64,000 nt of DNA, taken from Thiotrichaceae bacterium. Lineage in GTDB: Bacteria > Pseudomonadota > Gammaproteobacteria > SZUA-140. The notes beneath the pieces were generated by a model. That model did no database searches, was not told the DNA's origin, and saw only the letters and a program-made list of their open reading frames with translations. The DNA is taken from assembly GCA_002401765.2 (NCBI GenBank), contig NVTY02000078.1, positions 1 to 64,000 on the forward strand, read 5' to 3'. The stretch's first letter is position 1. Each line of letters begins with the position of its first letter. Shown here one piece after another: positions 39,669 to 64,000 of this stretch. Position numbers and translations under genes: made by a program.

Positions 39669-39955
39669 CTAGCATGCTGTATTTAAAATAAGGGAAGGCT
39701 CATCGATTTCGTCAACCAGATAGAGAAACCAAAGCACCTTGGTTTTCAGATAGCCTTCATAACTGGCGAGTAAGCCGCTGGCGATCGCTCCCATACGACC
39801 GTTCGCATAATGAGGTTCGACCGGAACAAAAGGAATCAGCTGTTGCGTTAGTGAGTGGGTTTTAGCATAAACGCCAAAAATCTTCCACGAGGTAGCGACA
39901 CGGTGGTAATTGCTTGCGGTTTTTTATCTAAATGGCCCCTCACAGTTAATTTCAT
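39669..39955 (-). pseudogene. frameshifted ORF translationally coupled to the phosphopantetheinyl transferase
   Basis: The ATG at 39955 overlaps the TGA of the preceding gene (ATGA), as do most junctions in this operon. The frame reads MKLTVRGHLDKK and then stops early (ending MLKPTH). One added A in the run of six after GAT restores a roughly 95-residue protein: TASNYHRVATSWKIFGVYAK, QQLIPFVPVEPHYANGRMGA, LLASYEGYLKTKVLWFLYLV, DEIDEPS. I do not recognise it. It is either a broken last gene of the biosynthetic operon or the victim of a homopolymer error. The rest of the gap (39591-39668) holds nothing I can support. Confidence 0.55.
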
Positions 39956-44475: not shown

Positions 44476-45281
44476 TGTAAGCCCTTTTCCAGCCCGTAAG
44501 TACTAAAGACACTGTCATCCACACTGTTATTCAATTCAATTGAATCCACCATCATCAAGGTGGCATGCACCATCTGATCGTGTTGCGTAAGTATCATCTG
44601 CTCATTTTTAGCGATCCACGCCCCACTGACCTGTTCAATTTTTGATGCGGTGTAATACTTCATCCAACCTTTATCCTTTAGCCAATATTTCGCTTTCATC
44701 ACAAAATTACGTTCTGTATCCACCCAATACCGAATGCGGGTATAACCGGTTTTGTCAATTACGTGATCGAGAATATCAGCACGTGGCAATGCGTCAATGA
44801 TGGCTTCTCCTGCAGCAGGCGTTTCATTCTCTGAAAATTGATAGTCAAAGTCATCAACTTCCAGGCGCTCTAAGTCACCATAGGTAAAGTCACTGCCAAG
44901 AAAATAGTCTGCGCGATTTGAAGCCGATAAACGTGTTACTTTCCTCAAATCAGGTAAATAGATCCATGCCTCATTTTCTCGGGTTTGCAGATTCCAGTCA
45001 TAAGACAAAAACCCCGTTCCTTTGAGTTTTGCGGGATCTAAAATGTAGGTTAAGCTCTTCTCATCTTGGTCATACATTTTGTTAACCGTGCGAATCTTTC
45101 GATAATTTCGATTTTTATCCTTATCAATCAGTACCACTTGGATAATGGTTATACGTGTATCTCCTCGGTAGCTCTCATCAACTGCTTTCATAATGGCGGG
45201 GGCACTTTTGTCTAGTGCCCATGTCGAGGGATGAAAGGACACGAAAAAGAGTAGTAGCACAAAACCTAATGAACGCTCCAT
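44472..45281 (-). CDS. LolA-like outer membrane lipoprotein-sorting protein
   Basis: A 269-residue periplasmic protein with a signal peptide (cleaved near TWA, residue 22) and a LolA-like fold: KIRTVNKMYDQDEKSLTYILDPAKLKGTGFLSYDW, EAWIYLPDLRKVTRLSAS and DFTYGDLERLE are the family marks. Such proteins bind lipophilic cargo between the two membranes. It overlaps the MMPL gene by one base and the barrel gene by four, and probably carries the substrate between them. Confidence 0.87.
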   Translation of the reverse strand: MERSLGFVLLLFFVSFHPSTWALDKSAPAIMKAVDESYRGDTRITIIQVVLIDKDKNRNYRKIRTVNKMYDQDEKSLTYILDPAKLKGTGFLSYDWNLQTRENEAWIYLPDLRKVTRLSASNRADYFLGSDFTYGDLERLEVDDFDYQFSENETPAAGEAIIDALPRADILDHVIDKTGYTRIRYWVDTERNFVMKAKYWLKDKGWMKYYTASKIEQVSGAWIAKNEQMILTQHDQMVHATLMMVDSIELNNSVDDSVFSTYGLEKGLQ

Positions 45282-47890
45282 TACACCTTCTCCACATTAC
45301 GATGCACAGCCGCCGCTCTGGGTACCCGCTCAAGCAAATTAATAAGCGCGGGCGTAATCAACATATCACTGATAAGTGCAAACACCATCACCAAGCCCAG
45401 CAACATACCAAAGCGACTGAGTGCATCCATCGCTGAAAAGCCAAAGATAAGAAAGCCTGAGGCCATCACCGCCGTTGTCACCACCATTGCAGGACCAATA
45501 CGCATCACTGTACTTTGCACCACATCGGCAACACTACGCCCTCCTTTGATTAGCTCACGGTGCACGCCATGAGTCAGGTGCACCGTATCATCAACAGCCA
45601 GCCCTAAAGCAATGCCGCCAAGCAACACAGTAAACATATCGATGGGCATACCCCAATAACCCATAATAGCCAAACCGGTATAAATAGGTAGCAAATTAGG
45701 AATCAGGCACACCAATCCTAATGAAAAGCGTTGCAACAGTGCAATGAGCATCGTGCCGATGAGAAATATTGCAAGCAGATAACTGCTCAGCATACTTTTA
45801 ATGACATCCATCGCCCCGGTTGCAAGGAGGTCAACCGTCCCGGTCACCTTAACCGTCGCGACATCGCCGAAAATAGCATTGGCTTTGGACTCAAGTGCTT
45901 CTCTCACCCCTACATAATCACGCGCATCCGCCCAACTTAATCGCAACGTTATTCTGGCCAGCGAATAAGCACGATTCGTTAACCGCTCAATCTCTTTAGC
46001 ACCGCCACCTTCATAAAGAAGGATTTCTTGATGAATAAGCCCTTCGCTATCAGGTATTGAATTACCTGAATATGGCGCAAGCTGGCTATGTATACGCTGT
46101 AAAGAATCCACCAATGAATTAGCACTGCCAATCTCAATGCCCGCTGCCTGATACGATTTTGCATACGCCTGAAACTGTTGCATACGTTTCATGAAGTCTG
46201 GCGTCAAAATTCCATTTGTGCGCTGCGTATCCAGTACAATCTCCAGCGGCACCGTCGCCCTCATTTTTTTATCGATCGCGTAGGTATTGACTCTTACGGG
46301 TTCATCTGCAGAAAACCATGTCAGCACATCGTGAGAATAATCGAGACGGGCAATACCTGGTGCTCCGACAGCAATAATGACAGCGGTAACTACCAACACC
46401 AAGCAGCTGCGACGAACACCAAAATTTGCCAACGGCACGAGTATTTTTGCATAACGATCCCAACTTACATTGGGGCTAGTTGATACCGATCTTTCACCCA
46501 AAATCTTCAGTAGCGCTGGTAGCAATAAAAAGGTGTACAGCAGCGCCAACATAATTCCCAGCGCTGCCATCCAACCAAAATCTGCCACTGGCTTCAGTCT
46601 CGCAACAGTAAATGAAATGAATCCTGCAGCGGTTGTTATGCTGGTGTAAAAAACCGCGCTACCACTGCTCTCAAAGGCGTTAATAATGGCGCTGTCCAAA
46701 GACTCCCCGCGCTGCCGATTTTGGTAGTAGATGCTCAATAAATGAACTGAGTCAAGCACCCCTGCGGTCAATAAAATAGCCGGTAACGCTTGACTGATGA
46801 CACTCACAGGCATGCCAAGATATCCCATCGTGCCAAGCGTACTCAGCATAGCCAGTACCACAACACTCAATGGAAGCAGGACTGCGGTTACCGTTCTCAG
46901 CAACAAAGCAAGTCCAATCACAATCACCAGCAATGCCATGGCGATTAATACCAGGATATCCGAATGAATCGATTCATTGTGCATCCGATCAATAATCGGG
47001 CCGCCTGCGAGACGAATATCAAGTCCTTCCGTGCGATGACGCTCAACCACTTGGTCAATCGCGTCAAGAAATGCATTAAGCTCCATGCCACTCAAGCCAC
47101 TCAAGCCACTTGTCTGGGTCTGGTCGGCAACACGCTGCGATGACGTCGTTGTAGGCTCAGGTTCAAATAATAGTTCTTGCTCGCCAAAGAATCTGTCAGA
47201 GTCCCTATCAATAGCTTCATCATTGAGGTTTTTCCCCGCCAAATAAGCATCAAACTCATCGTGCCAACGAATTATCTTTTGACCAATACCGGAGAAAAAT
47301 CCTGTATTCTGAGACTCATCAACACGTGCTACAGGTTTTCCTCCGGCCGCTTCACGCGCTTCTTGTGAGGAAAAAGCGACAGCACGCATAATCACCAAGG
47401 TCATGGAGCCATCCGCAGAGAGCAAGCTATTTTTGTAAAGTGAGCTGCTCAGAACATCCGCTTTTAACTTGTCGCTCACCACGCCGGTGATGGGCCATTC
47501 ATCACCCAGCTCGCCTACTTTTAAACCACCATTCTCTTCAACAATCCAGTCTACATTCACGATGCTGGTCACATCATCTAACCAAGGAATCACATCTTCT
47601 AATTCACGATGAAATGCCCGTAACTTCTGCATCATCTCACCCGAGAATAGTTGATCGGATGTCACGGCCGCAATCACGATGTCATCTCGACCAAATTGAT
47701 GCTGAAATTCGCGATAATCCATCAACGTCGGATCACCCTCGTTAAACATCGCATCATTGCTTGAATCAACCTTTAAGTTGCTCATTCCAAGCGCCAACAC
47801 AGCGCTAATCAGCGACACAACTAGAAGTGCGATATACGGCTTCCTAATTACCCATGTCGTCATATGAACAATTGATTTATCTAAAATCAT
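45281..47890 (-). CDS. MMPL/RND family transporter
   Basis: An 869-residue inner-membrane protein with two halves of six membrane helices each (around 20-40 and 310-470; 500-520 and 680-850) and large periplasmic loops, the RND/MMPL plan. The repeated GLAVDDTVHLTHG (second half) and its counterpart TAGVDLDSVHLLS region in the first half hold the proton-relay Asp. Relatives such as HpnN move lipids or hydrophobic products out of the inner membrane. A strong ribosome-binding site (AAAGGAGTTCCGTAA) precedes the ATG. It is part of the biosynthetic operon, 118 bp after the HupE-like gene, and is the likely exporter of the product. Confidence 0.9.
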   Translation of the reverse strand: MILDKSIVHMTTWVIRKPYIALLVVSLISAVLALGMSNLKVDSSNDAMFNEGDPTLMDYREFQHQFGRDDIVIAAVTSDQLFSGEMMQKLRAFHRELEDVIPWLDDVTSIVNVDWIVEENGGLKVGELGDEWPITGVVSDKLKADVLSSSLYKNSLLSADGSMTLVIMRAVAFSSQEAREAAGGKPVARVDESQNTGFFSGIGQKIIRWHDEFDAYLAGKNLNDEAIDRDSDRFFGEQELLFEPEPTTTSSQRVADQTQTSGLSGLSGMELNAFLDAIDQVVERHRTEGLDIRLAGGPIIDRMHNESIHSDILVLIAMALLVIVIGLALLLRTVTAVLLPLSVVVLAMLSTLGTMGYLGMPVSVISQALPAILLTAGVLDSVHLLSIYYQNRQRGESLDSAIINAFESSGSAVFYTSITTAAGFISFTVARLKPVADFGWMAALGIMLALLYTFLLLPALLKILGERSVSTSPNVSWDRYAKILVPLANFGVRRSCLVLVVTAVIIAVGAPGIARLDYSHDVLTWFSADEPVRVNTYAIDKKMRATVPLEIVLDTQRTNGILTPDFMKRMQQFQAYAKSYQAAGIEIGSANSLVDSLQRIHSQLAPYSGNSIPDSEGLIHQEILLYEGGGAKEIERLTNRAYSLARITLRLSWADARDYVGVREALESKANAIFGDVATVKVTGTVDLLATGAMDVIKSMLSSYLLAIFLIGTMLIALLQRFSLGLVCLIPNLLPIYTGLAIMGYWGMPIDMFTVLLGGIALGLAVDDTVHLTHGVHRELIKGGRSVADVVQSTVMRIGPAMVVTTAVMASGFLIFGFSAMDALSRFGMLLGLVMVFALISDMLITPALINLLERVPRAAAVHRNVEKV

Positions 47891-48008
47891 TTACGGAACT
47901 CCTTTCTAAAAAGAATGCCGTCACAAACCACTACCCCCAAGGTATGTAATACCCGAGGAGTAGGTCGCATTTTTTGCAACGATATAGAATATGCTGAATC
48001 AATAAAAA

Positions 48009-48626
48009 TTAAGTAAAGAGAGCGGTGCCTTGCAATAAAATTAATGTTCCAGCACCCGCCATACCCGCCCCAACATAGCGTAATACGGTCACCCAATGCG
48101 TGCGGCGAATGGCCATCTCGCCAATGATCACACCAGTGATATGTAACAATGCAGTACTAGTCAAAAAACCTAACGTATAGAAGGCAGGACTGGCGGAACT
48201 AGGCATTTCTAAACCATGGGCATGGCCATGAAAAATACCAAAGAAAACCACAAAACTGGAAATAACCAAAACACCGGTACCGCGATTAGAATTAATAATG
48301 CTAGCGCCTAGAACAATTACGGATATCGCAATACCCAACTCACCAAATAACAGCGGCATTTGAAGAACCCCTAACACACCGCCAAGCATCATTGAACCCA
48401 TGAAAGCGCAAGGGATGCGCCAAATGTTTTTCCCACCCAGCTGTGCACTCACAATACCCACACTAATCATAGCTAATAAATGATCAATACCAAAAATGGG
48501 GTGGGTTAACCCTGAGAGAAATCCAGTGCTATCCGTTTCTTCATGGGCAAAAACAATACTGGGAAAAAGCGCCAGTGCAATCACTAGAACACGACAAAAT
48601 ATACTATTATTTATTAAAAATCTCAT
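48009..48626 (-). CDS. HupE/UreJ family membrane protein
   Basis: A 205-residue protein with a cleavable signal peptide (IVFAHEE, mature end with His) and about six helices. GLTHPIFGIDHLLAMISVG (about 39) and FHGHAHGLEMP (about 132) are the two His-rich motifs of HupE/UreJ proteins, known or proposed to move nickel or cobalt. There is no hydrogenase or urease gene in the window, so its placement in a thiazoline-type operon suggests a metal connected with the product. That link is inference. Confidence 0.87.
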   Translation of the reverse strand: MRFLINNSIFCRVLVIALALFPSIVFAHEETDSTGFLSGLTHPIFGIDHLLAMISVGIVSAQLGGKNIWRIPCAFMGSMMLGGVLGVLQMPLLFGELGIAISVIVLGASIINSNRGTGVLVISSFVVFFGIFHGHAHGLEMPSSASPAFYTLGFLTSTALLHITGVIIGEMAIRRTHWVTVLRYVGAGMAGAGTLILLQGTALFT

Positions 48627-49178: not shown

Positions 49179-52100
49179 CTAGGCACTGAGTTGGTGTTTA
49201 AAATAGGCCTGCCAATAATCATCTTCGATGACTTTATGCTGCGTAAATTCACGCCGCATAAACGCATCAAATTTCTTCGTATAGACATGTTCATTACTGA
49301 ATAAGGCTTCAAACAATGAGCCCGCGCTTGTCGATTCGAATAAGCGCGTGACGATGGCACCATTTTCTGTGGGAAGGTTACTCACCACTTCATCGCAGGA
49401 TTTTTTCCACTGTTCATAAGAAATAAGTTCAGCATAATCATCACCGAATTTATTTTTCAGCATTATTCTAATAAGTGATGATAAGCGTGTGGGTTGACTA
49501 TTTTCGATATGCACAACCTCTGAATCACGACGTCCTTGTTGCGAATAACCCACGATAAAACGGGCGATCGTGTCTACGGGTAAGCCATGCATTTCTCCCT
49601 CATGCCAATCTGGAATAGCATCTACAGAATTTGCAATTTGAAATACACTCTCATAAATATAATTAACTTCCGGCTTTCTAAATCCATCATCGTATGCAGG
49701 CAATATATGTGATATTCGAAATATCTTCACCGGAATGTCTCTCTGAGCTGCAGCATGCATTAACACTTGTTCCGCGGCCCACTTAGACTGGGCATAGCCG
49801 ATCAGTAAACCGTCTACCGTATCAGAAACCTCTTCTTCATGCTGAATACTGAAGTGTCCATCAACCAGCTTGATACACACCGCCAATGATGAGCAGAACG
49901 AAATTGACTTAATATGATGACTGGTGGCCAAGCAAACTAATTGTTCAAGCGGGTCAACGTTAAGGGAACGAATATCAGTATAATTAGATAAGGTACTGAC
50001 AGAGGCTGCCAAGTGATAAATCGTATCCACACACTCTGACACGCGCTGCCAAATCGTATCCGATAAACCCAATTTTTGTTTTGTTAGATCACCGACCGTG
50101 GGTATGATACGCAATACCATATCTGCAGAGATACGCAGATTGAAATGCTTAAGATTGGCTAAAATGGCCTCCAAACCTTCAGATTCGTTCACAGCCCGCA
50201 CTAAGCAATAAACAACAGCATCTGAGTGGCAAAGCAATTCACTCAGTGTGTAAGCCCCCAGCCAGCCCGTCGTCCCGGTCAGGAAAACTGAACGAGCTTT
50301 CTCAGCATTATACGCACCAACATCAATGGGCAAAGCATCGATTCGCTCACAAATCCTAGCGACATCATTCACGATCTCCTGCGGGTCACACCGAAGTGCT
50401 GGGAATATTCGCGCCACGTCAGATGTGTCGCTGTTATTTTCTGTGTGATCACTCACTCGTGATACATATAAAATCGCCAACTCTTCAATAGACAGGTATT
50501 CAAAAAATTCGTGCATCTCAAGTTCGAAGGGAAGTCGCAAGTTGATTTCACGCACCAGTTGTGTCGCAATTAATGAGTCACCACCGAGATCGAAAAAGTT
50601 ATCTGTTACACCAATATCTACGGACGAAATAATGTGAGACCAAGCATCGAGTAAGGTCTGCTCAATTTCATTTCTCGGCGCCACAATTTCTCTATCAAAG
50701 AATTCACTATCCTCAGGGATGGCAGGTAACGCCTTGTAATCAATTTTTCCATTTTCGGTGATAGGCATGTGGTCCATTTGAATAAGATGGAGTGGTACCA
50801 TATACTCCGGCAAACGTTGTGATAGATACTCTTTTACTGCTTGCATATCAATATGATTAACTTGTGATGGGCCGCTCGCAACAATGACATTAAAACCCAG
50901 GTATTCTGCCACGGAACCCGCAGGCGCCACCACTGAGACATCGCTGAACCCACAGTCAATCAACACCTCTGACCACTCATCCCCGCTCAATAAACAGTGG
51001 TTTTTACGCAAACCTTCATCGGTATAACCATCGAAACCTTGCTGTAATCCCATGTGTAAGTCGAAGGAACGGAAAAACTTAGTTTCTTCTAACAACAAAA
51101 GCTTGCCCCCCGGCTTAAGCAATGAAATCAAATGCCCAAGTGCCAAACGGATGTCTTGAACATCATGCAACATGCTAGAGGCAATAATTAGATCAAAACT
51201 ATGATGTTTGAGCCCCTGGAATTCTGGACGAATATCCAAGTTGTACAGTTGATAACTGAGCTGCTCAGAATCAGGGCCAAAGAGATTGCGCGCCCGGTCA
51301 AGAAAGAAGGTGGAGATATCAGTAAACAGGTAGTGACAATCCGCATTGAGCAGCGCCGACAACACGTGTTGTGTCGCTGAACCTAGGCCAGCCCCCACTT
51401 CCAAAACATTTAAGCCTTGCGTTTGTTGGCGAGTAATCTCGGCAGTCACTGCGGCCAACTGCGCATGGTTATCAGGAAACAACTTTTGATAAACCTGCGC
51501 AGTCTCTTTGCCCGCGTAAATTTCTGCCGAGTGAATGGTCTCTGTTAATATGTCATGTAAGCGTTCAACAACACCCACAAACCATGCCGCCTCGTCCTGA
51601 TCGAAGCCGAAGCTCGCGATTAGCCCTTGCGACACCTCAGCTGACAGTGCTCGCAAATTTGGCTCAGGCAGTGGTTTTAATAACTCAATTTTACCTGGCC
51701 CATACTCACAAGCGTAGCCTTCTTCAATCAATACATTAAAGGCCCGCTTTAGCCAGCGCTCATAACGCGCGACTATGCCATAGTCGAGCAAACGATCAAT
51801 CACCAACCGCTCGCCTACTTCGCCTTTAACACCAAAATGGTGTAGCGCAACCAGAAGACCATGGAAATAAAAATCATCCAATCGCTGCCAAATCTGCTTA
51901 AGCAATGGTTCAATTTTTTTCGCATCGCGGGCACAAAGTACATCTTTCACTAGTTCTGAGAGCTTGACTTCAACACGGATTATTTCGCTATAACCTAGCG
52001 TCACCAATTTAGTCGACTCAGGCTTAATATAAGCAATCAACTGTGACTGCCCCGCAAGTCCAGGAATCGGCAGTACAACTGCCTCATGAATCTCGGCATG

Positions 52101-54971
52101 CTGACTCAAAGTCGATACAATCTCGCCCAATTCCACACGGTGACCTCTAATTTTTACTTGATCGTCTTCTCTGCCAAGAAAGAGTACATTACCGTTCGCG
52201 GCGTAGCGACCAAGATCACCGGTGTCATAGAGGCGCTCACCGCTATGATGGTGAACGATGAACCGCTCTGAAGTTTTTTTCTCATCACCCCAATAACCTT
52301 TTGCTAGCCCCGAACCCCCGATAAAGACTCGCCCCTTGACGTGATCGGGACACGGGCGAAAAGCATTGTCGTAAATCCAGATTTTCTGATTGGGCAGCGG
52401 CTTACCATAAGGGATGCTCGCCCATGTCGCGCAGACACTGTCAATGGGGTAGTAAATTGACCAAATCGAGCCTTCAGTTGCACCGCCCAAACTGATCACA
52501 TCAGCCTTAGGAAATACATTTAGAACCCGGCCCGGCAAGTCCAACGGAATCCAGTCCCCACTCAACATCACAGTGGTTAGGTGGTCGCCACCTTGGTCAC
52601 TCGCACCCACACTGTCCATGAGCATTCGCATCAGTTGTGGCGCTGAGTTCCACAGGGTGACTTTGTGGTTATTGATAAGCTGATGCCAGTGCAGCGGATC
52701 GTGCTGCTTACTATGTTCAGGGATCACCAAAGTGCCCCCTACTGCCAGCAAACCAAATATGTCATAAACTGACAGATCAAAGCTAAGTGAAGAAACACAC
52801 AGCGCTTTATCGTGAGGCCCAATATTAAACAAGCGATTGATGTGATCGATTGTGTTCACCGCACTACGATGATCAATCATCACGCCTTTAGGTACACCTG
52901 TTGTTCCAGAGGTGAAGATAACATAGGCTAAGTCATCTAAATCAATATCGACTAACGGCAGTATTTTAGCCACTGATAGCGGGACATCACACGATGACAC
53001 AGCAACGATATTCAAACCTTCAGTCACATAAGTATCCGGCAAATCCTCAGTTTGAACCACCGCTTGGCGCACATTGGCAATCACCAGTAATTCTTTCTGC
53101 CGGCGTATCGGCAGACCCGTATCAATCGGTACATACGCACCACCGGCCAACAAAATCCCCAGAACCGTCACCACCTGTTCCCAACCTTTGTGCATCAATA
53201 CAGCAATAAGCTCGGCACGTTCAACACCATATTCGCGCAATGTATTGGCGACGATAAGACTCTCTTGCAGCAGCTCCTCGTAACTGAGTGTGCGTTCAGA
53301 TGATTGAATGGCAATCGCGTTGGGATGGACTTTCGCCTGCTCAACAAAGCCGTCATGTAAATAGCGTAGCGGGATCGCGGCTTGCGTCTGGTTGGTAGCT
53401 TCTCGCAGTTGTGCCATTGCAGGCGGTAACGCAACAACATTGCATTGCGCCCAGGCGTCTTTGCTGGTGGCTAATTTGGTTAAAAGATCGTGGTAAGCGC
53501 TAAACATGGCATCCAGCACCCCCGCCTCAAATACATCATCCACCGCATCCCAGTTAAATACCAGATCGCCATCTATCTCCATGACTTGATGATCCAGCCA
53601 AACCTGAGGTGTTTGGCTAATGCCATGAACCATCGGACCAAAGCACTCGACCAAACCAGCGTCATCGCCAGCTTCCCCGCCTAACACCAAGGCGCTGGTA
53701 AATACCACTGGCATGGAGGCCTGTAGCGGATTATCTCGGCGCCTCGTCCATTCGCGCAGCACTTCTACACCGCTCATTTCGCGATGTTCCAAGTCACTCA
53801 TCAACTGCCGTTGTAACTGCTGAGCACGCTCGTTAAAATTTAATCGCCAGTTTCGATGATCCACTTCGACCAACACCAGCGAGGTAAAGTCTCCCACCAT
53901 CTGCATCACTTCTGGATGCAACGGTAGACGATTAAACAGTGTGAGATTCAACGTATAGTGTGGTGAAGCACTCCAGCGTGTCAGCACTTCAGCGTAGGCC
54001 GCCAACAGGACACCCGAAATCGTCAAACCCGCCTCTCTGGCGTTACGCTTCAGATGATCCCATTGCGTGGCATTCAAATGCTTCCGGCGCCGACTAAACC
54101 GTGGCGGCTGACACGCATCCACTTGGCTGCGAATGGGAAGTTCTGGTGCAGGCGGTAGGCTATCAATTCGTCCCAGCCAATAATCCTGAGCCCGCTGACG
54201 CACCTTGCTATCACCGAGCGCACTTTCAGCCAGAACATAGTCTCGATAAGAGAGTGAGAACGGCGCCAATGCTAAGGCTGGGTTTTGATAAAAATCACGC
54301 CATTCTCGGAATACAATAAACATACTCCAAGCATCCAAAATCAACAGATCCAAACTCACATGCAATCGAGTACTCCCATCTGGCAAACAGGTTGCGCGAA
54401 TATCAAAGAGTGGCCACTGATCAGGATTTAGGACTTGATGCGATAAAATGTTTCGGGTCGTAATAATCTCGTGCTCTGCCACTTCGGCTGTCGCATTAGT
54501 GCAATCGACTACGGCAATTTGATAAGCCGGAACAGAGGGGTAAATTTGTTGCGTGCCATTGTTATTCACCACCGCGCGTAGCATGTCGTGACGTTCAATT
54601 AGCTGGCACAGTGCACGATTCAATCGTGCTAAATCCAAACCCTTCGTATCCAGTTCAAAGTAGAAATGCGTCGCAACGTTGCCGAATTCGACCATGTTAC
54701 CTCGCCCCAGCCAATACGCGTGCTGGACGTCAGTCAGGGGAAACGGCTGCTCCCGACTTTCTTCATCCACAATCAATGGCGGTAAAGTTTCGTTCTCAAA
54801 ATCCAAATTCGCTGTTGCCCGCAAATAGTCCAAAATGCGCAACTTGTGTTGTCGTAATCCCTGACGCAACTCATTTGTCAAAGTGCCGTTCGGTGCAATA
54901 ACTCGCAGTTCATCACCATCTGCTTCTAATCTAACGCCGGCTTGCCTCGCTGCCACCAATACCCGTTTCAT
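49179..54971 (-). CDS. NRPS: docking, cyclisation, adenylation (Cys) with inserted methyltransferase, carrier, terminal reductase
   Basis: A 1930-residue module that adds a cysteine, closes it to a thiazoline and releases the chain by reduction. A TubC-type docking domain (1-52) is followed by a heterocyclisation domain (75-500) with the intact DLLILDAWS (208-216). The adenylation domain has FDLSVYD, TLWNSAP, MLSGDW and SLGGATEGSIWS, giving the pocket DLYNMSLIW, the cysteine type. A full methyltransferase is inserted after the A8 motif, with NVLEVGAGLGSAT (about 1185). The carrier Ser is in DLGGDSLIA (about 1460). The thioester reductase has TGTTGWLGA (about 1566) and YAQSKW (about 1727), and would give an aldehyde or alcohol. 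Whether the inserted domain methylates or epimerises is open; its SAM motif is intact. It overlaps the upstream NRPS by 4 bp. Confidence 0.93.
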   Translation of the reverse strand: MKRVLVAARQAGVRLEADGDELRVIAPNGTLTNELRQGLRQHKLRILDYLRATANLDFENETLPPLIVDEESREQPFPLTDVQHAYWLGRGNMVEFGNVATHFYFELDTKGLDLARLNRALCQLIERHDMLRAVVNNNGTQQIYPSVPAYQIAVVDCTNATAEVAEHEIITTRNILSHQVLNPDQWPLFDIRATCLPDGSTRLHVSLDLLILDAWSMFIVFREWRDFYQNPALALAPFSLSYRDYVLAESALGDSKVRQRAQDYWLGRIDSLPPAPELPIRSQVDACQPPRFSRRRKHLNATQWDHLKRNAREAGLTISGVLLAAYAEVLTRWSASPHYTLNLTLFNRLPLHPEVMQMVGDFTSLVLVEVDHRNWRLNFNERAQQLQRQLMSDLEHREMSGVEVLREWTRRRDNPLQASMPVVFTSALVLGGEAGDDAGLVECFGPMVHGISQTPQVWLDHQVMEIDGDLVFNWDAVDDVFEAGVLDAMFSAYHDLLTKLATSKDAWAQCNVVALPPAMAQLREATNQTQAAIPLRYLHDGFVEQAKVHPNAIAIQSSERTLSYEELLQESLIVANTLREYGVERAELIAVLMHKGWEQVVTVLGILLAGGAYVPIDTGLPIRRQKELLVIANVRQAVVQTEDLPDTYVTEGLNIVAVSSCDVPLSVAKILPLVDIDLDDLAYVIFTSGTTGVPKGVMIDHRSAVNTIDHINRLFNIGPHDKALCVSSLSFDLSVYDIFGLLAVGGTLVIPEHSKQHDPLHWHQLINNHKVTLWNSAPQLMRMLMDSVGASDQGGDHLTTVMLSGDWIPLDLPGRVLNVFPKADVISLGGATEGSIWSIYYPIDSVCATWASIPYGKPLPNQKIWIYDNAFRPCPDHVKGRVFIGGSGLAKGYWGDEKKTSERFIVHHHSGERLYDTGDLGRYAANGNVLFLGREDDQVKIRGHRVELGEIVSTLSQHAEIHEAVVLPIPGLAGQSQLIAYIKPESTKLVTLGYSEIIRVEVKLSELVKDVLCARDAKKIEPLLKQIWQRLDDFYFHGLLVALHHFGVKGEVGERLVIDRLLDYGIVARYERWLKRAFNVLIEEGYACEYGPGKIELLKPLPEPNLRALSAEVSQGLIASFGFDQDEAAWFVGVVERLHDILTETIHSAEIYAGKETAQVYQKLFPDNHAQLAAVTAEITRQQTQGLNVLEVGAGLGSATQHVLSALLNADCHYLFTDISTFFLDRARNLFGPDSEQLSYQLYNLDIRPEFQGLKHHSFDLIIASSMLHDVQDIRLALGHLISLLKPGGKLLLLEETKFFRSFDLHMGLQQGFDGYTDEGLRKNHCLLSGDEWSEVLIDCGFSDVSVVAPAGSVAEYLGFNVIVASGPSQVNHIDMQAVKEYLSQRLPEYMVPLHLIQMDHMPITENGKIDYKALPAIPEDSEFFDREIVAPRNEIEQTLLDAWSHIISSVDIGVTDNFFDLGGDSLIATQLVREINLRLPFELEMHEFFEYLSIEELAILYVSRVSDHTENNSDTSDVARIFPALRCDPQEIVNDVARICERIDALPIDVGAYNAEKARSVFLTGTTGWLGAYTLSELLCHSDAVVYCLVRAVNESEGLEAILANLKHFNLRISADMVLRIIPTVGDLTKQKLGLSDTIWQRVSECVDTIYHLAASVSTLSNYTDIRSLNVDPLEQLVCLATSHHIKSISFCSSLAVCIKLVDGHFSIQHEEEVSDTVDGLLIGYAQSKWAAEQVLMHAAAQRDIPVKIFRISHILPAYDDGFRKPEVNYIYESVFQIANSVDAIPDWHEGEMHGLPVDTIARFIVGYSQQGRRDSEVVHIENSQPTRLSSLIRIMLKNKFGDDYAELISYEQWKKSCDEVVSNLPTENGAIVTRLFESTSAGSLFEALFSNEHVYTKKFDAFMRREFTQHKVIEDDYWQAYFKHQLSA

Positions 54972-57900
54972 ACTTGCATCACTCCTTTGACTCGCATCGA
55001 ATTGGCTATCCCTGCTTTGCTGGTGAGTTGATCCAACTTAATTATCCATTCCTCAATGGCCAATGCCACTGCGCCAACATACTGTTTTTGCAGAACGGTA
55101 TAATGGCTACCCGCCGCTATTTCGCTGTGCACTTTGCCACTTGTTAGTTCATCCCATCCCCAATCCCCACGCTCAGAGAACGGATGTGTCACAAACTCGC
55201 TGACGATGCCATCCCGCGCGCGAATTGAGAGTATTTCATCGCAAATAATTCCGGGCTGATACTCTCGTGTAGCGCTCACTATGCCTTTAAAGACTTGATA
55301 GATGTCGCTTAACTGATTCATGTTAAAGAGCTGGTCATCCATTAGCTGATGCAAAATTTCCAGGCGCTGAGCCTCCGTTAACGTAGCACCGTTACGTGCT
55401 TCAAAACGATCCACAACATGGACGGAAAGATTTAGATCACCCGCAAACCAGTTGAACATGGTTAGATCATCTACCGGGCCATGCACCAAAGGTGCGGGGC
55501 TATCAATCGCCACCACACCACGCACCGTCCAATCGCTTTCTCGCAAACGAGACGCCAACTCAAAAGAAATGGGAGCCCCTGAGGACCATCCGCCTAAATA
55601 AATTTCTCCGCGCCAATCGAGACGTTGAAACTCCGCCAAATAACATTCAACAAAATCATTAACGGTAGAAAGTGGCACACCAAGCCCATCACTCCCAGGC
55701 GCCTGAAATGCAAATACAGGTCGCTTTAGTTGCGCGGACAGTTCGGCATAACAAATGACGTTGCCACCCGCTGGATGGACTAAAAATAGAGGTGTCCCTT
55801 GGCCTTGGTGATCAAGACTGATTAGGTGGCTCTGATCTTTTCCTAGCGTGCTGCTATTAATTCTCTGGGCCAATTTTTCGAGGGTTTTCGCCTGCCAGAC
55901 ATCACCCAATGACAAGGTGTCACCGATGGTTTCTCGAATTAACCCAACCAGTCGAACTGCTTCGAAGGATTGGCCACCAAGCTCAAAAAAATCATCCGTG
56001 GCGCTAATCTTCTCGCGCCCGAGTACCGTTCGCCAAAGCGTTAACAACACCCGTTCAATCTCCCCTTGCGCTGCACGGCCCGGCAACGTCTGCTGCTGCG
56101 GAAGCAGATCCGTGATGACGGGAAGTGCTTTGCGATCGATCTTGCCATTGCTATTGAGTGGGAAATCCGTCAAAAATTGAGCGGCGTTTGGCAACATATA
56201 GGCGGGTAGCTGCTCTGCTAGATATTCCCGAAAAAAGGTAAACGTCTCGCTGTCTTCCGCTGTGGCTCGCACAATGTAGACCACGAGCTGCGGAGATCTT
56301 CCTTCCACTTTCTGTACCGCAGCCACCACTTTACTAACACTCGGATGAGCACACAAAACGGTTTCAATTTCCCCCAGCTCGACGCGGTGTCCTTGGATCT
56401 TAACTTGGTGGTCAGATCGCCCCAGGAACTCGATAATACCGCCAGGTCGGTATCGTCCCACATCACCTGTACGATAAATACGCGCCCCAGTTTCTGGGTG
56501 TTGCACAAAACTGCCTTGGGTCTTTTCCGTATCACACCAATAGCCACTCGCTAAACCAACACCGCCAATGTATAGATCACCCACACTCCAGTCAGGTGTT
56601 GGCCGACCTACCTCATCGAGGATATACCAGGGTTGATTTTTCATGGGGTAGCCATAGGGAATACTTGGCCAATCCGAATCAAGCTCGTCAACTTCGTAAC
56701 AGATAGACCAAATTGATGCTTCTGTGGCCCCGCCCAAGCTCACGACCTTGGCATTAGGCGCAATAGCACGCAGTCGTGCTGGAAGATCCAACGGAATCCA
56801 ATCGCCACTCAATAGCACCAGTCGCAATGCGGGCAGTGTCATATGGCGAAACTCGGCAGCCTCAACCATAAGTTGTGCCAACGGCGGTGCTGAGTTCCAC
56901 ACCGTCACGCCCTGCGTACTCAACAAATCCAGCCAGTGGGCTGGATTCAGTGCCTGATCAGGGTCTGGATAGATTAAAGCGGCGCCAGCCGCGGCACTGC
57001 CGAAAATATCATATACCGAAAGATCGAAACCAAATGAGGATATCCCAAAAAGTTTATCCTTCGACGTCACAGAGAAACGTTGATTTATATCAAGAATGGT
57101 ATTTACAGCAGCACGATGGTCAATCATCACACCCTTGGGATGTCCTGTGGAGCCAGAGGTATAGATGATGTAGGCCAGCTCGTCATCCCGCAGAGGCGCG
57201 ACATCTGCTTTTACCGCTTCACTTTTCACATGAATTTTTACAGTTCCAACACCGTCGGGAAAGGTGAATGAATCACTATAGATCGCTTCTATCAGCACTA
57301 CATGCACATCACTATTTTTAAGTAGATAGTTACGCCGCTCTGGAGGAAGGGCCGGATCAACGGGAATATAGACAGCCCCAACCCTTAATACGCCATATAC
57401 AGCCTGCAGTAGTGCCGCGCCGCGATTGGCAATAATCGCAACGCGATCCCCAGGGACAACACCCCTGTTTTGTAACTGTGTAGCAATCGCATGACTACCA
57501 CGGCTCAATTCACCATAACTAAGCGCCTTTCCACATGCACTCAATGCCAGTGCGCCGGGATTAGCACTCACTGCTTTTTCGAGTAACACCTCTAGTCGTT
57601 GGTCGCTAAGCTGTTCCGCTATTGGCGTCACTGTGGCGCGCTGTTCCAGCACTGACAAGGACACCATCGTGAACGCTTTTGATTGCCAGGCGTCAGCGTG
57701 GCTTGCAAGTTTTTCGATCAGGGCGGCATAAGCCTGCCACATGGCATCAATCATACCCTCAGGAAAAAATTCTTCCAATAAATCCCAGGCATAATAAAAA
57801 CTGCCATCCGATAATTCCCAAAACTGGTGGTCCAACATAACTTGCGATGTTTCAAGGCAGCTAAAATCGGCGCGTTCATAGTTTTCCATAAACAAGCCAC

Positions 57901-59176
57901 TGCCAATGACAAATGGGATAGGAGAAACACCCACTTCACCGCTCAGGCGGTTCAGTGCTTGCATGACGGGCATCCCTCCCCATTGCAAATACTGTGCATC
58001 ACGCATCACCTGATCCTGTATCTGCTGGGCGCGCTCGGCAAAACTATCACCCTGCCGAAGATCAACTTCAAGGGGATAAAGCGAAGCAAAGTTACCTATA
58101 ATGTCGAAAATTTCTGGGTGTATATTCAAACGCCGCGTCATCATATTACTCAGCACAAAGTGACGATTATTGCTCCAGGCCGAAAGCACCTCTGCATACG
58201 CACTAAACACCGCATTAGAGGGCGTAATACCTAAGGCTTTGGCATGTTGTTTAAAGGACTGCCAAGTCGATTGTGAAAATTGATGATCACGGCGCTGCAA
58301 CTTAGAACGACAACGGCGTTCCATAGTAGCGCGTACGGGTAATGCAGGGGGACCTGGCAGATTTACGAGCCGCTCCTCCCAGTATCGCCGCGCCGTCTGC
58401 CCTTGATCAGAGAGCGCTAGTTCATCTAAGGCAATCGCTGCATCACGAAAGCTCAAACTAATATCAGGCAATTTCTGCTGTGGCTCGCGGTAGTAGAGGT
58501 CAATCTCTTGTAGCAACCGAGTGGTGCCATAGCCATCAGAAAAAAAATTATTGTGATTATAGTGTATACGCGCCTTTTCAACCCCAGCTTCTGACCACAA
58601 CGATACCTTTAAATCAACCCATGGCCAACGATCAATAGGTAACTCACTGCGCATCATCTTGTCACGCAAGATGCTCAACGCCGCTTGCCTTTCCGAGGAA
58701 CTTTTATCGCGAAAATCGATCACGTCTATCTGTAAGGGTTGCGGGTTTTTGACAACAGCTTGCTGACCGTCAGCGCGAACAATACTGATCTCGTGAGCGT
58801 GTCGCCGTAAGGCACGATTCCACGCCGCCTCATAACGCACCACATCAAGTCCATCTACATTCTTTTCCATATAGTAGTGTGGCCTCACATGAAATTCCAT
58901 ATAAGGATCAGAGGCCATATAAAAACCAAACTGCAGGTCTGACAATGGAAATGGCTGATACAGGTTTTCCGTATCAGGTATACAAACAGGCAATACTGTT
59001 TCTTCGTGATCGCGTTCTTTTAGCCATGCAAGAATAGCTGCCTTATTCGTCACCAACTCGCTCCGTAACGCCTCAGTTAACGCACCTTTCTTCGCCTTAA
59101 CTTTAAGCTCATCTCCTTCGCAGCTTAACGTCACCCCTTGTTGCTGCAAACGCTGTAAAAAACCTACTAAACTCAT
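54968..59176 (-). CDS. NRPS: docking, cyclisation-like, adenylation (Cys), carrier, thioesterase
   Basis: A 1402-residue module. A TubC-type docking domain (1-53) comes first. The condensation/cyclisation-like domain (75-490) has NNFFSDGYG at about 208 where cyclisation domains have DxxxxDxxS, so its first Asp is Asn. The adenylation domain (about 555-980) has FDLSVYD, TVWNSAP, LLSGDW and SLGGATEASIWS: pocket DLYNLSLIW, cysteine. The carrier Ser is in ELGGQSFEA (about 1063). A type I thioesterase (1130-1390) has HPAGGN, the nucleophile GWSSGA (about 1196) and a late His in AGSHYTV. A releasing domain in mid-line is unusual, because another NRPS with its own release domain follows. Start and stop overlap the neighbours by 4 bp each. 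Confidence 0.92.
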   Translation of the reverse strand: MSLVGFLQRLQQQGVTLSCEGDELKVKAKKGALTEALRSELVTNKAAILAWLKERDHEETVLPVCIPDTENLYQPFPLSDLQFGFYMASDPYMEFHVRPHYYMEKNVDGLDVVRYEAAWNRALRRHAHEISIVRADGQQAVVKNPQPLQIDVIDFRDKSSSERQAALSILRDKMMRSELPIDRWPWVDLKVSLWSEAGVEKARIHYNHNNFFSDGYGTTRLLQEIDLYYREPQQKLPDISLSFRDAAIALDELALSDQGQTARRYWEERLVNLPGPPALPVRATMERRCRSKLQRRDHQFSQSTWQSFKQHAKALGITPSNAVFSAYAEVLSAWSNNRHFVLSNMMTRRLNIHPEIFDIIGNFASLYPLEVDLRQGDSFAERAQQIQDQVMRDAQYLQWGGMPVMQALNRLSGEVGVSPIPFVIGSGLFMENYERADFSCLETSQVMLDHQFWELSDGSFYYAWDLLEEFFPEGMIDAMWQAYAALIEKLASHADAWQSKAFTMVSLSVLEQRATVTPIAEQLSDQRLEVLLEKAVSANPGALALSACGKALSYGELSRGSHAIATQLQNRGVVPGDRVAIIANRGAALLQAVYGVLRVGAVYIPVDPALPPERRNYLLKNSDVHVVLIEAIYSDSFTFPDGVGTVKIHVKSEAVKADVAPLRDDELAYIIYTSGSTGHPKGVMIDHRAAVNTILDINQRFSVTSKDKLFGISSFGFDLSVYDIFGSAAAGAALIYPDPDQALNPAHWLDLLSTQGVTVWNSAPPLAQLMVEAAEFRHMTLPALRLVLLSGDWIPLDLPARLRAIAPNAKVVSLGGATEASIWSICYEVDELDSDWPSIPYGYPMKNQPWYILDEVGRPTPDWSVGDLYIGGVGLASGYWCDTEKTQGSFVQHPETGARIYRTGDVGRYRPGGIIEFLGRSDHQVKIQGHRVELGEIETVLCAHPSVSKVVAAVQKVEGRSPQLVVYIVRATAEDSETFTFFREYLAEQLPAYMLPNAAQFLTDFPLNSNGKIDRKALPVITDLLPQQQTLPGRAAQGEIERVLLTLWRTVLGREKISATDDFFELGGQSFEAVRLVGLIRETIGDTLSLGDVWQAKTLEKLAQRINSSTLGKDQSHLISLDHQGQGTPLFLVHPAGGNVICYAELSAQLKRPVFAFQAPGSDGLGVPLSTVNDFVECYLAEFQRLDWRGEIYLGGWSSGAPISFELASRLRESDWTVRGVVAIDSPAPLVHGPVDDLTMFNWFAGDLNLSVHVVDRFEARNGATLTEAQRLEILHQLMDDQLFNMNQLSDIYQVFKGIVSATREYQPGIICDEILSIRARDGIVSEFVTHPFSERGDWGWDELTSGKVHSEIAAGSHYTVLQKQYVGAVALAIEEWIIKLDQLTSKAGIANSMRVKGVMQV

Positions 59177-62100
59177 AATACAAACACCTCGGTATCTTCA
59201 TCCGCTGTGGCGTCATGTTCCACACTCTGCACGCTTAAACATCGCATCAACATCTTTTGATGAATAAGCTCAGCTGCTGCTGACATTCTGTTATTACCTA
59301 TAAGTATATGGGCAGGAAGTTCGGCATGCGTCCAGGTTCTGATACGATTGCGCAGCTCCATAGCCATCAAGGAATCGATCCCTAATTGCGATAGCTGAAG
59401 TGCAGAAACGCGCTCGTGGTTTTGCAACACGGCATCATCATTAATATGCAATACCTGAGATATTAGTAAACCCAACCCCAGCAGAATTTCCTTCAGCGCT
59501 TCCTCTTCAGGCAATAAAACTAAGGTCTCTGGAAGTGGCAAAGAAAGTACCGCTGCTGAATTCGGACTGTCGCTCGCCGTCGCAACACTTTTCATCAGTT
59601 CCTGTAACAATGCTGGCAACTCAGAGAGAGGTGAGCGCTCACTAAACTGCTGCCAATCAATATCTGCAACCACTGTCTGTCCGTCACCTCGAGTCAGTAC
59701 TTGACCCAAGTTCATCAAGGCTTCGGCGGGTTCCATGGGCGTGATGCCTTGCCGCTTCAGGCGTGCAGACAAATCTGCGCCACTCGCCATCCCAATTTTT
59801 CCCCATGGTCCCCAGTTAATGCAGATACCAGATTCACCTCGGTTGCGCCGTTCGGCCATCAATGCATCCAGCATTGCGTTGGCTGCCGCATAATTACACT
59901 GTCCTGCAGAACCCATTACGGAACTGATAGAGGAAAACGCCACAAAAAAGTCGAGCGACAATGAGCGACTTGACTGATCCAATAAATGAGCAGAAAGTGC
60001 TTTTGCTTCCACAACCCGCTGCCAGCTATCCGGTGTGATATTGGCCAAGGGCTGATCATCAACAAGCCCGGCGCCGTGAATAATTCCGCGCAACGGATAA
60101 TAACGTTCTGCCAAATGCGCGAAAAGTGTTTGCACTTCGTCGAGACATCCTAAATCGGCACGGAAAATTTCAACCTCGACACCGCGCTGACGTAAACGGC
60201 TAATCTTTGCGCTTCTCTCTGAATCAAGAACACCGCGTCGTCCAACTAAAACCAGCTGTTTGGCACCCGCATCAACCAACCATTCTGCCACCGCCACGCC
60301 CAAGCCTCCTGTGCCACCGGTAATCAGGTAACAGCCTTTCTCGCGAATTTCGAAAGGAGTCCCCTCATCAACAGTTCGCTCAGTCGGCATTAGCACTGGG
60401 CTAAAAAATCGCCCCTCGCGCAACACTAATGCGTTAATCAATGAATGGTTTAACCGCGTATAAACGAGTTTCCACTCAGTGACGTCTAGCGTTGCCGGAA
60501 TATCACATTGGCATAGCGGTAAATGGGGATACTCCAGTGCCGCTGAACGCAACATACCGGCAACACCAGACTGAGCAACCGCGCGAAATTCGGCCGAAAT
60601 AACCGACTCCGCTTGACGTGTCAGCAGACAAAGCCGAAAGTCTGCATCAAGCGTTGTCACACTATCCAGCGCGAGCATTAAGCGTTGCATAAACTGGCAG
60701 AGCGCTAAGCCTTTCGAAATCGAATCAACAGTAGTCGTTGAGTCCAGTAGTTCATGATTGATGAGCACCACAACCCGGCTGATCGCCTTGGCTTTAGCAA
60801 GCGCCGACAACAATTGTTCCTGGCTCGCATGCGCCCAACTTTCGAGAGCGATTGGCACAATCGCGTTATTTGACGCTTCTGTGAACAACGTCACCGAAGC
60901 ATCTTGCTGATGGTGAAACACCAACCACTCAGCCGCACACGCCTCACCTGTTTCAGCAGGTACGTCTTCCTCTCGCCATTCAATTTGAAAACGTTGTGCC
61001 TGAGTGTGATTGCCTGGTTGAACGAGTGCGTACGCATCCAGCCAAGTCAGCGACAAGCCCACAACTTGTGCAACGGGCACCCCGTGCCTGTCATACAGTT
61101 CAAGGTCCGCCACAACGCTTGTTGAGTTGGACGCTTCTTCGCGAATTTTTGCACGCACATATAACTCGGTACTGGGCGTTTCAAAAAGTTGCAGCGACTC
61201 GATAGCGGTAGGCAAAGGGACACGGTGATCTACAGTGTCTCGCCCGTAAAGCAATGCACCAAGTGCTTGAAAAGCGCCATCCAATAACGTTGGATGCACC
61301 CCACGCTTTCCCCAAATACCGATATCCACCGTTAAGGATACTTTTCCCTGCACCTCCCCATTAGCACAACTCAGGTCAGTCAACGTCTGAAATGCCGGCC
61401 CGTACTCTAAGCCACGCTCACGCCAAGCCGCATAAAACTCAGTCGTATCGATGGCTTCTGCCATAGATAAATCGGTAACAGGCAGCAATGGTGATTCCAC
61501 CGTGGCGGACTCAATAAATTTGGCGCTGGCGCAGGTGACCCACTTCGCATCCACCAACGACTTTGCACGTACCTGAATTTCCCCACTGTCCGCACCCTCT
61601 TGCCTAACGAGTAGCGTTTGAACCATCACAGGCTCATCGCTCAAATTGAGGTGGCTAATAAAATTAATATCACGAATACACATGCTCTGTGCCTCAGCGA
61701 CCCAACCGGATTTCCGTATTGCTGACGCCATTAATTCTAAATATGCCGCCGCAGGTAACACACTCTCCCCCTCCAGGCGGTGCTCTAACAGAAACGTTCC
61801 CGACGCCCCCGGTAATTGCGTTGAAAAGCTCTCAAATTCATCAGATGCAATATCCAAAGACTCACCGCAAGGCTCTGCTGATGCACTGATCACACCAGAA
61901 TTTACAGTGTTATAAAGCGATTTTTCAAACCAGAACCGCTGTTTTTCAAAAGGATAAAGCGGCAAATCAGGCAATAAGCACGTCGCATGCTTAGCGCGAT
62001 TTTTTGTGAAAGTCGCGGCACCTATCGTGTACAATTCCCCTAAAGAGCTTTGCATTTGCTGGATATCATCAACTCGCGCTCGTAGACTAGGAAGATAACG

Positions 62101-64000
62101 CCCCTTTGCACTCATGCTTCGGCCCAGCGCAGTAAGAATTGGTGCAGGCCCTATCTCAACAAACGTATCAGCCCCCTCTTCAATCAGGTAATTGAGCGCA
62201 TCAGAAAAGCGAACAGGCTGACATAACTGCGCCACCCAGTACTGAGTATCCGAAACGATGCCATCAATCCGCCCACCCGTTGTAATCATCGTTATCACGG
62301 GTGATTTCAGTTCAAGCCCCTCAAAGGCTGATGCAAAATGGGCTTGTGCTGAGACCATAAGACGCGAATGAAATCCGTGACTCACCTTCAGCAGCGTCAC
62401 TTCCACACCGACTGCTTCGAAAATATTTTTTGCACGCAGCACACATTTTTTCGCGCCTGAGAGCACAACTTGATCAGGGGTATTAATTGCCGCCACATCC
62501 AGATCAAGCAGCGTGTTACCCAAATGGGCTTTAGCTCTATCTAGATTGACTGAAACTGAAAGCATCGCACCGTTACCGTGCGATTCCGACATTAACCTGG
62601 CACGCTCAGCCACCAGCTTAAGCACAGAGGCTAAATCCATCACCCCAGCAGCATAGGCGGCACTGTATTCACCGACGCTATGCCCCAGCACAAATTCCGC
62701 CTCAACGCCCCAGTGCTTCCACAGTTCAAATAAAGCGATTTCAGTGGCGACTAGCGCGGGCTGTGCGTATCGCGTTTCGTCAATAAGATCGGAATTATCA
62801 CCATATAAAATCAATTTAAGTGAGCAATCTAAGTCGGATTTCAATAACTCATCACAATGATCAATACAGGCGCGATATACCTCATAATTCTGATACAGCT
62901 CCGATCCCATATTGGTGTATTGCGAACCCTGTCCAGTAAACAGAAATGCAACCCTAGGCGGATGATTAACTTTTCCGCGAGTGACATTTCCCAACTCAGT
63001 CGCTTCATCTTTGGCAACACTCAGTAAGCCGCGACTGATCTCTTCCTGCGTACCCACCACCGCCACACGATAGTGTAAATCGGCGCGTGAGGTGTTCGCG
63101 CTAGCGCAAAATTCATTATTGAAAGTCAGTGCATCCATTGGCTCGACTAAGCTTTCCACATAGCGCCCCGCCAGTTTTCTTAAACTCACTTCGCTGGCAG
63201 CGGATAATATCAGTAATGCGGCATGAGGGACTGTGTTATCCAACGTATTGGGCAAATCGCGAGTCGCGGCATGATGTGATTGCAAAACCACATGCGCATT
63301 TGTGCCACCAAAGCCAAATGAACTTACGCTGGCAAGAAGCGGTTTATCCGTTGTGGTTGGCAGCCCCACCGCTTTGGTCGCTGGCAACAATCGACTGGCA
63401 TCAAGATCGATATGAGGATTTAGCACATTAAAATGCAGATTGGCAGGAATTTTTTTATGCTGAAGAATCAGCGTAGTTTTAATTAAACTGGCAATACCTG
63501 CTGCCGACTCTAAATGACCGATCTTGCTCTTCACGGCGCCCAACCAACAGGGCTTTGATGGCGCCCCATCTCCGACATCAAGAACTGCCTTCAAGGCATT
63601 TACTTCAATCGGATCGCCCAATGGCGTTCCCGTACCATGTGTCTCGACGTAGTCAACATCAGCACCACTAGCACCAGCACTGGCCAGTGCCGCACGAATC
63701 ACGCGCTGCTGTGCCAATCCATTCGGTGCGCTTAGGCCATTACTGCGACCGTCCTGATTAACCGCACTGCCCTTAATCACTGCAAGCACTTGGCTGCCAT
63801 CCTTAAGGGCATCACTGAGCCGCTTAAGCACGACAAAACCACACCCTTCGCCACGCACATAGCCGTCAGCCTCTTCATCAAAGGTGTGGCAACGCCCTGT
63901 CGGTGAGAGCATATTGGCCTGAGAAAAAATCTCGCCGTAATCCGCAGACAGCACTAGATTAACGCCGCCGACCAAGGCTAAATGTGACTCTCTATGTGCC
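59173..64000 (-). CDS. modular type I polyketide synthase (partial, KS-AT-DH-KR-ACP)
   Basis: The frame is open to the window edge, so the N-terminus with the KS active-site Cys is missing. Visible are the KS C-terminal half with ESHLALVGGVN, VETHGTGTPLGDPIE and KIGHLES (both catalytic His), an acyltransferase with GHSVGEYSA (about 430) and SHGFHS, which fits malonyl-CoA, a dehydratase with HRLEGESVLP (about 730) and LLDGAFQ, a ketoreductase with GGTGGLG (about 1221) and the Ser/Tyr/Asn pattern in FSSISSVMG and QCNYAAANA, and a carrier with GIDSLMA (about 1535). No enoyl reductase, so the module should leave a double bond. It is the most upstream visible gene of the operon. Confidence 0.94.
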   Translation of the reverse strand, partial: AHRESHLALVGGVNLVLSADYGEIFSQANMLSPTGRCHTFDEEADGYVRGEGCGFVVLKRLSDALKDGSQVLAVIKGSAVNQDGRSNGLSAPNGLAQQRVIRAALASAGASGADVDYVETHGTGTPLGDPIEVNALKAVLDVGDGAPSKPCWLGAVKSKIGHLESAAGIASLIKTTLILQHKKIPANLHFNVLNPHIDLDASRLLPATKAVGLPTTTDKPLLASVSSFGFGGTNAHVVLQSHHAATRDLPNTLDNTVPHAALLILSAASEVSLRKLAGRYVESLVEPMDALTFNNEFCASANTSRADLHYRVAVVGTQEEISRGLLSVAKDEATELGNVTRGKVNHPPRVAFLFTGQGSQYTNMGSELYQNYEVYRACIDHCDELLKSDLDCSLKLILYGDNSDLIDETRYAQPALVATEIALFELWKHWGVEAEFVLGHSVGEYSAAYAAGVMDLASVLKLVAERARLMSESHGNGAMLSVSVNLDRAKAHLGNTLLDLDVAAINTPDQVVLSGAKKCVLRAKNIFEAVGVEVTLLKVSHGFHSRLMVSAQAHFASAFEGLELKSPVITMITTGGRIDGIVSDTQYWVAQLCQPVRFSDALNYLIEEGADTFVEIGPAPILTALGRSMSAKGRYLPSLRARVDDIQQMQSSLGELYTIGAATFTKNRAKHATCLLPDLPLYPFEKQRFWFEKSLYNTVNSGVISASAEPCGESLDIASDEFESFSTQLPGASGTFLLEHRLEGESVLPAAAYLELMASAIRKSGWVAEAQSMCIRDINFISHLNLSDEPVMVQTLLVRQEGADSGEIQVRAKSLVDAKWVTCASAKFIESATVESPLLPVTDLSMAEAIDTTEFYAAWRERGLEYGPAFQTLTDLSCANGEVQGKVSLTVDIGIWGKRGVHPTLLDGAFQALGALLYGRDTVDHRVPLPTAIESLQLFETPSTELYVRAKIREEASNSTSVVADLELYDRHGVPVAQVVGLSLTWLDAYALVQPGNHTQAQRFQIEWREEDVPAETGEACAAEWLVFHHQQDASVTLFTEASNNAIVPIALESWAHASQEQLLSALAKAKAISRVVVLINHELLDSTTTVDSISKGLALCQFMQRLMLALDSVTTLDADFRLCLLTRQAESVISAEFRAVAQSGVAGMLRSAALEYPHLPLCQCDIPATLDVTEWKLVYTRLNHSLINALVLREGRFFSPVLMPTERTVDEGTPFEIREKGCYLITGGTGGLGVAVAEWLVDAGAKQLVLVGRRGVLDSERSAKISRLRQRGVEVEIFRADLGCLDEVQTLFAHLAERYYPLRGIIHGAGLVDDQPLANITPDSWQRVVEAKALSAHLLDQSSRSLSLDFFVAFSSISSVMGSAGQCNYAAANAMLDALMAERRNRGESGICINWGPWGKIGMASGADLSARLKRQGITPMEPAEALMNLGQVLTRGDGQTVVADIDWQQFSERSPLSELPALLQELMKSVATASDSPNSAAVLSLPLPETLVLLPEEEALKEILLGLGLLISQVLHINDDAVLQNHERVSALQLSQLGIDSLMAMELRNRIRTWTHAELPAHILIGNNRMSAAAELIHQKMLMRCLSVQSVEHDATADEDTEVFVL

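Follow-up and report, generated by a model that had tools for sequence, protein, structure and literature searches.

The window, i.e. the 64,000 nucleotides of DNA that were analysed, carries most of a gene cluster with the order FAAL, type I PKS, NRPS1, NRPS2, small membrane protein, HupE/UreJ, MMPL transporter, LolA-like protein, DUF1302 protein, GMC oxidoreductase, type II thioesterase, and phosphopantetheinyl transferase. The following features are needed below:

39952-40662, minus strand: phosphopantetheinyl transferase (Pfam)
40681-41463, minus strand: type II thioesterase (Pfam)
41460-43226, minus strand: GMC oxidoreductase (Pfam)
49179-54971, minus strand: NRPS2, 1930 residues, with TubC_N, ordinary cyclisation (Cy) domain, cysteine A domain with embedded methyltransferase, PCP, and thioester reductase
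54324-54350, minus strand: canonical motif DLLILDAWS of the NRPS2 Cy domain
54819-54959: TubC_N dock of NRPS2
54968-59176, minus strand: NRPS1, 1402 residues, with TubC_N dock, modified Cy domain, cysteine A domain, PCP, and TE
55046-55792, minus strand: type I TE of NRPS1, with GWSSG and GSHYT
55859-56050, minus strand: PCP of NRPS1, FFELGGQSF
56123-57583, minus strand: A domain of NRPS1, code DLYNLSLIW for cysteine (code table PMC3672683)
57662-58951, minus strand: modified Cy domain of NRPS1 (PDB sequence matches, AlphaFold2 fold, tree)
59015-59161, minus strand: TubC_N docking domain of NRPS1 (Pfam PF18563, E 3e-15)
59173-64000, minus strand: type I PKS, KS-AT-DH-KR-ACP, with the C-terminal docking tail DEDTEVFVL; the gene starts beyond the window at contig position 64683
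Contig positions 64736-66394: FAAL gene, after the PKS start

The genes for the MMPL transporter, the LolA-like, DUF1302, and HupE/UreJ proteins (43126-48626) accompany the cluster in the window and in G318, a genome from another family of the same class. The G318 cluster has recognisable counterparts of nearly all genes of the window cluster, and genes similar to the GMC oxidoreductase occur in the clusters of G318, L068, L069, and Streptomyces; in both cases open reading frames were read by eye.

NRPS1 contains the elements of a cysteine-specific terminal module, namely the cysteine code of the A domain, the serine of the PCP, and the Ser and His motifs of the TE. In the ten clusters described below, all A domains have the cysteine code and all modules with a modified Cy domain have the Ser/His motifs of the TE; a script recognised the PCP in NRPS1 of the window and in five of the other proteins, and its pattern missed the PCP in the remaining ones. 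The thioester reductase of NRPS2 (49323-50288) contains YxxxK, and together with the TE of NRPS1 there are two release domains in one cluster.

As recognised in the earlier note, the C3 motif of the NRPS1 Cy domain reads NNFFSDGYG, where the other NRPS has DLLILDAWS; the position given there (58540-58565) overlaps the true one but is shifted by about 13 bases. Alignment with the NRPS2 Cy domain, EpoB Cy, and BmdB Cy puts Asn at the first aspartate (Asp1) and Gly at the serine of DxxxxDxxS. Further exchanges were found by carrying over the residue numbers of HMWP2-Cy2 by residue spacing against the 7JTJ sequence, read by eye:

57824-57835, minus strand: LDHQ, dyad Asp1862 and helper Gln1864 retained
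57842-57856, minus strand: latch LETSQ (canonical SQTPQ), Gln1855 to Glu, as in all ten modified domains
57890-57913, minus strand: FVIGSGLF (canonical VxTSAL), catalytic dyad Thr1830 to Gly
58070-58096, minus strand: floor loop GNFASLYPL (canonical GDFTSL), D1770 to Asn and T1772 to Ala
58130-58150, minus strand: SNMMTRR, T1753 to Met and gating F1755 to Thr, R1757 retained
58526-58552, minus strand: C3 motif NNFFSDGYG (canonical DxxxxDxxS), Asp1 to Asn and Ser to Gly, Asp2 retained
58910-58942, minus strand: helix 1 SDLQFGFYMAS, Tyr1505 to Phe, and Arg1509, the salt-bridge partner of Asp1, to Ser

D1625, R1757, and Q1858 are likewise retained in the window domain. Note that the codons of the C3 motif contain a run of eight A; an assembly or frame error at this run was ruled out, because the 1402-residue frame is uninterrupted across it and because Asn and Gly were found again in nine other genomes.

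These genomes possess nine further clusters with the same domain (ten in all), which are distributed over gamma- and betaproteobacteria and Streptomyces. The domain of G318 is 59% identical to that of the window. A contig scan added cases in Rhodocyclales, Chromatiaceae, and Oxalobacteraceae MAGs and in Verminephrobacter aporrectodeae At4; Streptomyces sp. NBC_01435 was found in a plasmid collection, and G862, G920, and G794 among genomes of Verminephrobacter's family. The domain is rare: of 369 genomes sampled from the class, the window genome and G318 were the only carriers, and 398 genomes drawn from the phylum gave no additional one. Mutual identities range from 38% to 94%; identity to other Cy domains is at most 36%.

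In a tree of 46 rows, the ten domains form a single clade within the Cy family and apart from LCL domains (ultrafast bootstrap 100, SH-aLRT 100), and the LCL rows lie outside the Cy family at 100/100. The sister of the clade is unsure; L050 of G052 takes this place at 87/87 on a long branch. The eight best PDB sequence matches are all Cy domains. A fold search with the AlphaFold2 model (pLDDT 93) ranks 19 Cy structures of the PDB first (TM-scores to the query 0.79-0.89); the C and X domains listed after them score 0.69-0.78. The domain is thus derived from Cy domains and constitutes a distinct clade inside their family. An ordinary C domain of the LCL type was ruled out by tree, motif, and fold search, in agreement with the earlier observation that NNxxxDG differs from HHxxxDG: the latter is absent and replaced by NNxxxDG or NAxxxDG. 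The phylogeny, which had been proposed as a check, did not place the domain in a known active cyclisation clade with the same Asn: the clade has this Asn throughout, and no characterised member was found.

The exchanges are a property of the whole clade. Asn occupies the Asp1 position in 10 of 10 modified domains, and a residue other than Asp occurs there in one of the 35 other Cy domains (Fisher p about 3e-9); Gly replaces the motif serine in 10 of 10 versus none of 35 (p about 3e-10). Both p values overstate independence, because the rows share kinship. Y1505, R1509, D1620, S1628, T1753, F1755, D1770, and Q1855, all near-universal in other Cy domains, are lost in every modified domain, as is T1830, which is Gly in nine cases and Ser in Verminephrobacter. 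At D1770, the Chromatiaceae domain has Ser. The second Asn of the motif is Ala in G920 and G794 (NAVFWDGFG); this position is variable, with Asn ranking fourth in frequency (PMC9547227), so the second Asn is not odd in itself. D1625, R1757, Q1858, and D1862 are retained throughout, as are Q1864 and T1856. Consequently, NxxxxDGxG stands in place of DxxxxDxxS in all ten domains, and the Asp-Thr dyad has kept its Asp in all and its Thr in none. In addition, about 32 near-invariant residues are specific to the clade, some of them new and charged. The clade-wide conservation rules out isolated decay, and the domain is a real, conserved re-tooling of a Cy domain.

A domain that is dead or purely structural, leaving NRPS1 as a cysteine loading and TE unit in trans, has to be considered here. 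AngR, of the anguibactin system, has an Asp1-to-Asn change. Its Cy domain was reported to be apparently non-functional with a working A domain, and was judged so next to working Cy domains (AngR/AngN, PMC5577590). However, this is a single free-standing case rather than a clade whose members sit in a terminal module with a TE. The new residue set of the modified domain is strictly conserved across two phyla, unlike drift in an unused domain, and in the fused proteins described below it is the sole domain able to link the second module to the first. We therefore hold a dead domain to be very improbable.

What the exchanges may mean for catalysis can be judged from published structures. These do not bear out the designation of Asp1 as the first catalytic Asp in the earlier note: the DXXXXD motif has a structural role, Arg1509 being able to bridge to Asp1, and cyclodehydration is assigned to the dyad T1830-D1862 in HMWP2-Cy2 with a helper Gln; mutation of the gating residue F1755 severely lowers cyclodehydration (PMC9547227). 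With canonical Cy domains (EpoB-Cy, HMWP2-Cy2, BmdB-Cy2, PchE, FmoA3) the modified domain shares the fold (TM-score to the query 0.85-0.89), the sequence family, the Asp2-Arg pair, the dyad Asp, and the cysteine partner, whereas Asp1, Ser, the dyad Thr, the gating Phe, the floor-loop Asp, Arg1509, and the latch Gln are all replaced. Most likely, the domain has preserved its fold and the Asp2-Arg pair, which is structural, and has lost most of the cyclodehydration machinery. It seems quite improbable to us that a thiazoline is still formed, with the dyad Asp and Gln being sufficient and the other changes tuning substrate fit. The retention of D1862, Q1864, and T1856 in all ten domains would agree with this, as would the finding that Asp1 to Ala in PxbG Cy4 merely halved the product, which means that Asp1 is not strictly needed there; but T1830 and F1755, reported as important for cyclodehydration, are gone, plus the floor-loop Asp and Arg1509.

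In all ten clusters, the modified domain is accompanied by an ordinary cysteine Cy module, and the pairwise divergences of the two Cy domains correlate (r 0.75, Mantel p 0.002). In the Rhodocyclales cluster, NRPS2 is absent within 10 kb; a missing gene was ruled out, as NRPS2 is encoded on the opposite strand at a distance of about 13 kb. NRPS2 homologues with a methyltransferase occur in the window, Verminephrobacter, and G862; six clusters, the window among them, have an NRPS2 ending in a thioester reductase, and the homologues of Streptomyces and G862 stop at the PCP. In the clusters with a reductase and no methyltransferase, the partner Cy domains (L066, L068, L069, L076) may also be altered, because Ser replaces the dyad Thr, Ser or Gly the gating Phe, and His the helper Gln. 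The strongest clue to the order of the modules comes from G920 and G794, where one fused protein comprises TubC, Cy, A, PCP, modified Cy, A, PCP, and TE; the first motif is canonical (DMLIIDASS), the second is NAVFWDGFG. This order suggests that the modified domain receives a chain bearing a thiazoline and acts in the last elongation step. In the window, NRPS1 precedes NRPS2, and our initial assumption that NRPS1 acts first was doubted given the fused proteins; we infer that the split NRPSs of the window would follow the fused order, NRPS2 then NRPS1. In split systems, both NRPSs carry a TubC_N dock and the matching acidic tail of the EVFVL type is found on the PKS only; the two tails of a PKS dimer may recruit both NRPSs.

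With a probability of about 0.58, the modified domain condenses cysteine onto an acyl-thiazoline without closing a ring, so that the terminal cysteine thiol is kept and the product is released by the TE. The FAAL-PKS would supply the acyl chain, on which the ordinary Cy module of NRPS2 would make a thiazoline; the modified domain would then join this acyl-thiazoline as an amide to the cysteine on its own PCP and stop, and the open terminal cysteine with its intact thiol would be released by the TE through hydrolysis or ring closure. An open cysteine is thus probably added beside a normal ring, because the ring-closing site is systematically replaced and the domain, so rewired, is conserved both in proteobacteria and in Streptomyces. 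Condensation without cyclisation and a free thiol had already been considered in the earlier note; this is the best-supported reading and gains partial, indirect support, since the Thr of the dyad is lost together with the gating Phe and the floor-loop Asp, the changes are conserved across the clade, and the domain occurs fused to an ordinary Cy module. Several points count against it. Because the dyad Asp and the helper Gln persist and the latch has gained Glu1855, the domain may retain some acid-base chemistry; in six clusters, the reductase of NRPS2 could free the chain ahead of its transfer to NRPS1; and the position of NRPS1 before NRPS2, with docks on both and a matching tail on the PKS only, makes the order in the window uncertain.

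Alternatively, the modified domain might make another bond with the PCP-bound cysteine, for example an S-acyl thioester, a non-thiazoline ring, or a transfer with cysteine as sulfur donor, in which Glu1855 and the new residues His35 and Arg37 (the latter two in P0004 numbering) would take part. The roughly 32 clade-specific residues do look re-tooled rather than only lost, and atypical Cy domains with chemistry of this sort are known. Nearest in published behaviour is PxbG Cy4 of piscibactin/photoxenobactin, a terminal Cy-A(Cys)-PCP adjoining a TE, which is proposed to stop at the thioester, short of the ring (PMC9396620); it belongs, however, to a salicylate siderophore line and not to a FAAL-PKS. 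CaeA2/ColA2 also load cysteine and show non-standard chemistry, the CaeA2 Cy domain making a C-C bond (PMC8149447), but have a flavoprotein partner and a bipyridine product. The thiotetronate PKS-NRPS tethers cysteine beside a TE (PMC5518548), and TlmB/TueB resemble the window in having PKS KS-AT-DH-KR-ACP followed by Cy, A(Cys), PCP, and TE; in contrast to the window, they have KSQ loading, sulfur-transfer genes, and a single cysteine module. A thiotetronate synthase was ruled out by the FAAL start without KSQ loading and by the altered motif; desulfurase or thiouridylase genes were not seen near the window cluster, and thiotetronate producers keep them at a separate locus. All these atypical domains retain DxxxxDxxS, no desulfurase, beta-lyase, or CaeB1-type flavoprotein was recognised among the cluster genes examined, and ordinary condensation takes fewer assumptions; another bond is therefore unlikely, though less so than a domain without function.

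A degenerate terminal Cy domain of a different kind was observed in L009/L090 (G052:C26:25737-30095), within PCP-Cy-A-PCP-TE. In its motif, GGRLIILDGRS, Arg takes the place of Asp1; the dyad Thr has become Ala and the floor Asp has become Asn. It belongs to a different cluster, which contains small ACPs and genes resembling KAS III and acyl-CoA dehydrogenase. It is possibly a second origin of non-cyclising Cy domains.

A text search found no paper describing the cluster or the motif; since it covered few subscription journals, most of them being outside its coverage, novelty is provisional. On balance, we consider it rather probable that the modified domain represents a new functional subtype within the condensation superfamily and carries out a defined non-thiazoline reaction on PCP-bound cysteine, in an uncharacterised FAAL-PKS-bis-cysteine lipid family of proteobacteria and Streptomyces. 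The separation of condensation from cyclodehydration in Cy domains is an unsettled question on which this domain bears: it resembles a natural experiment, the second step having been removed and the first kept, with the ordinary Cy partner as internal control. With its active-site signature (NxxxxDGxG, GNF[AS], VxGxGL, LETxQ), genome-mining tools could avoid predicting a second thiazoline in modules of this kind; the signature also draws attention to lipid thiols as an unexplored family.
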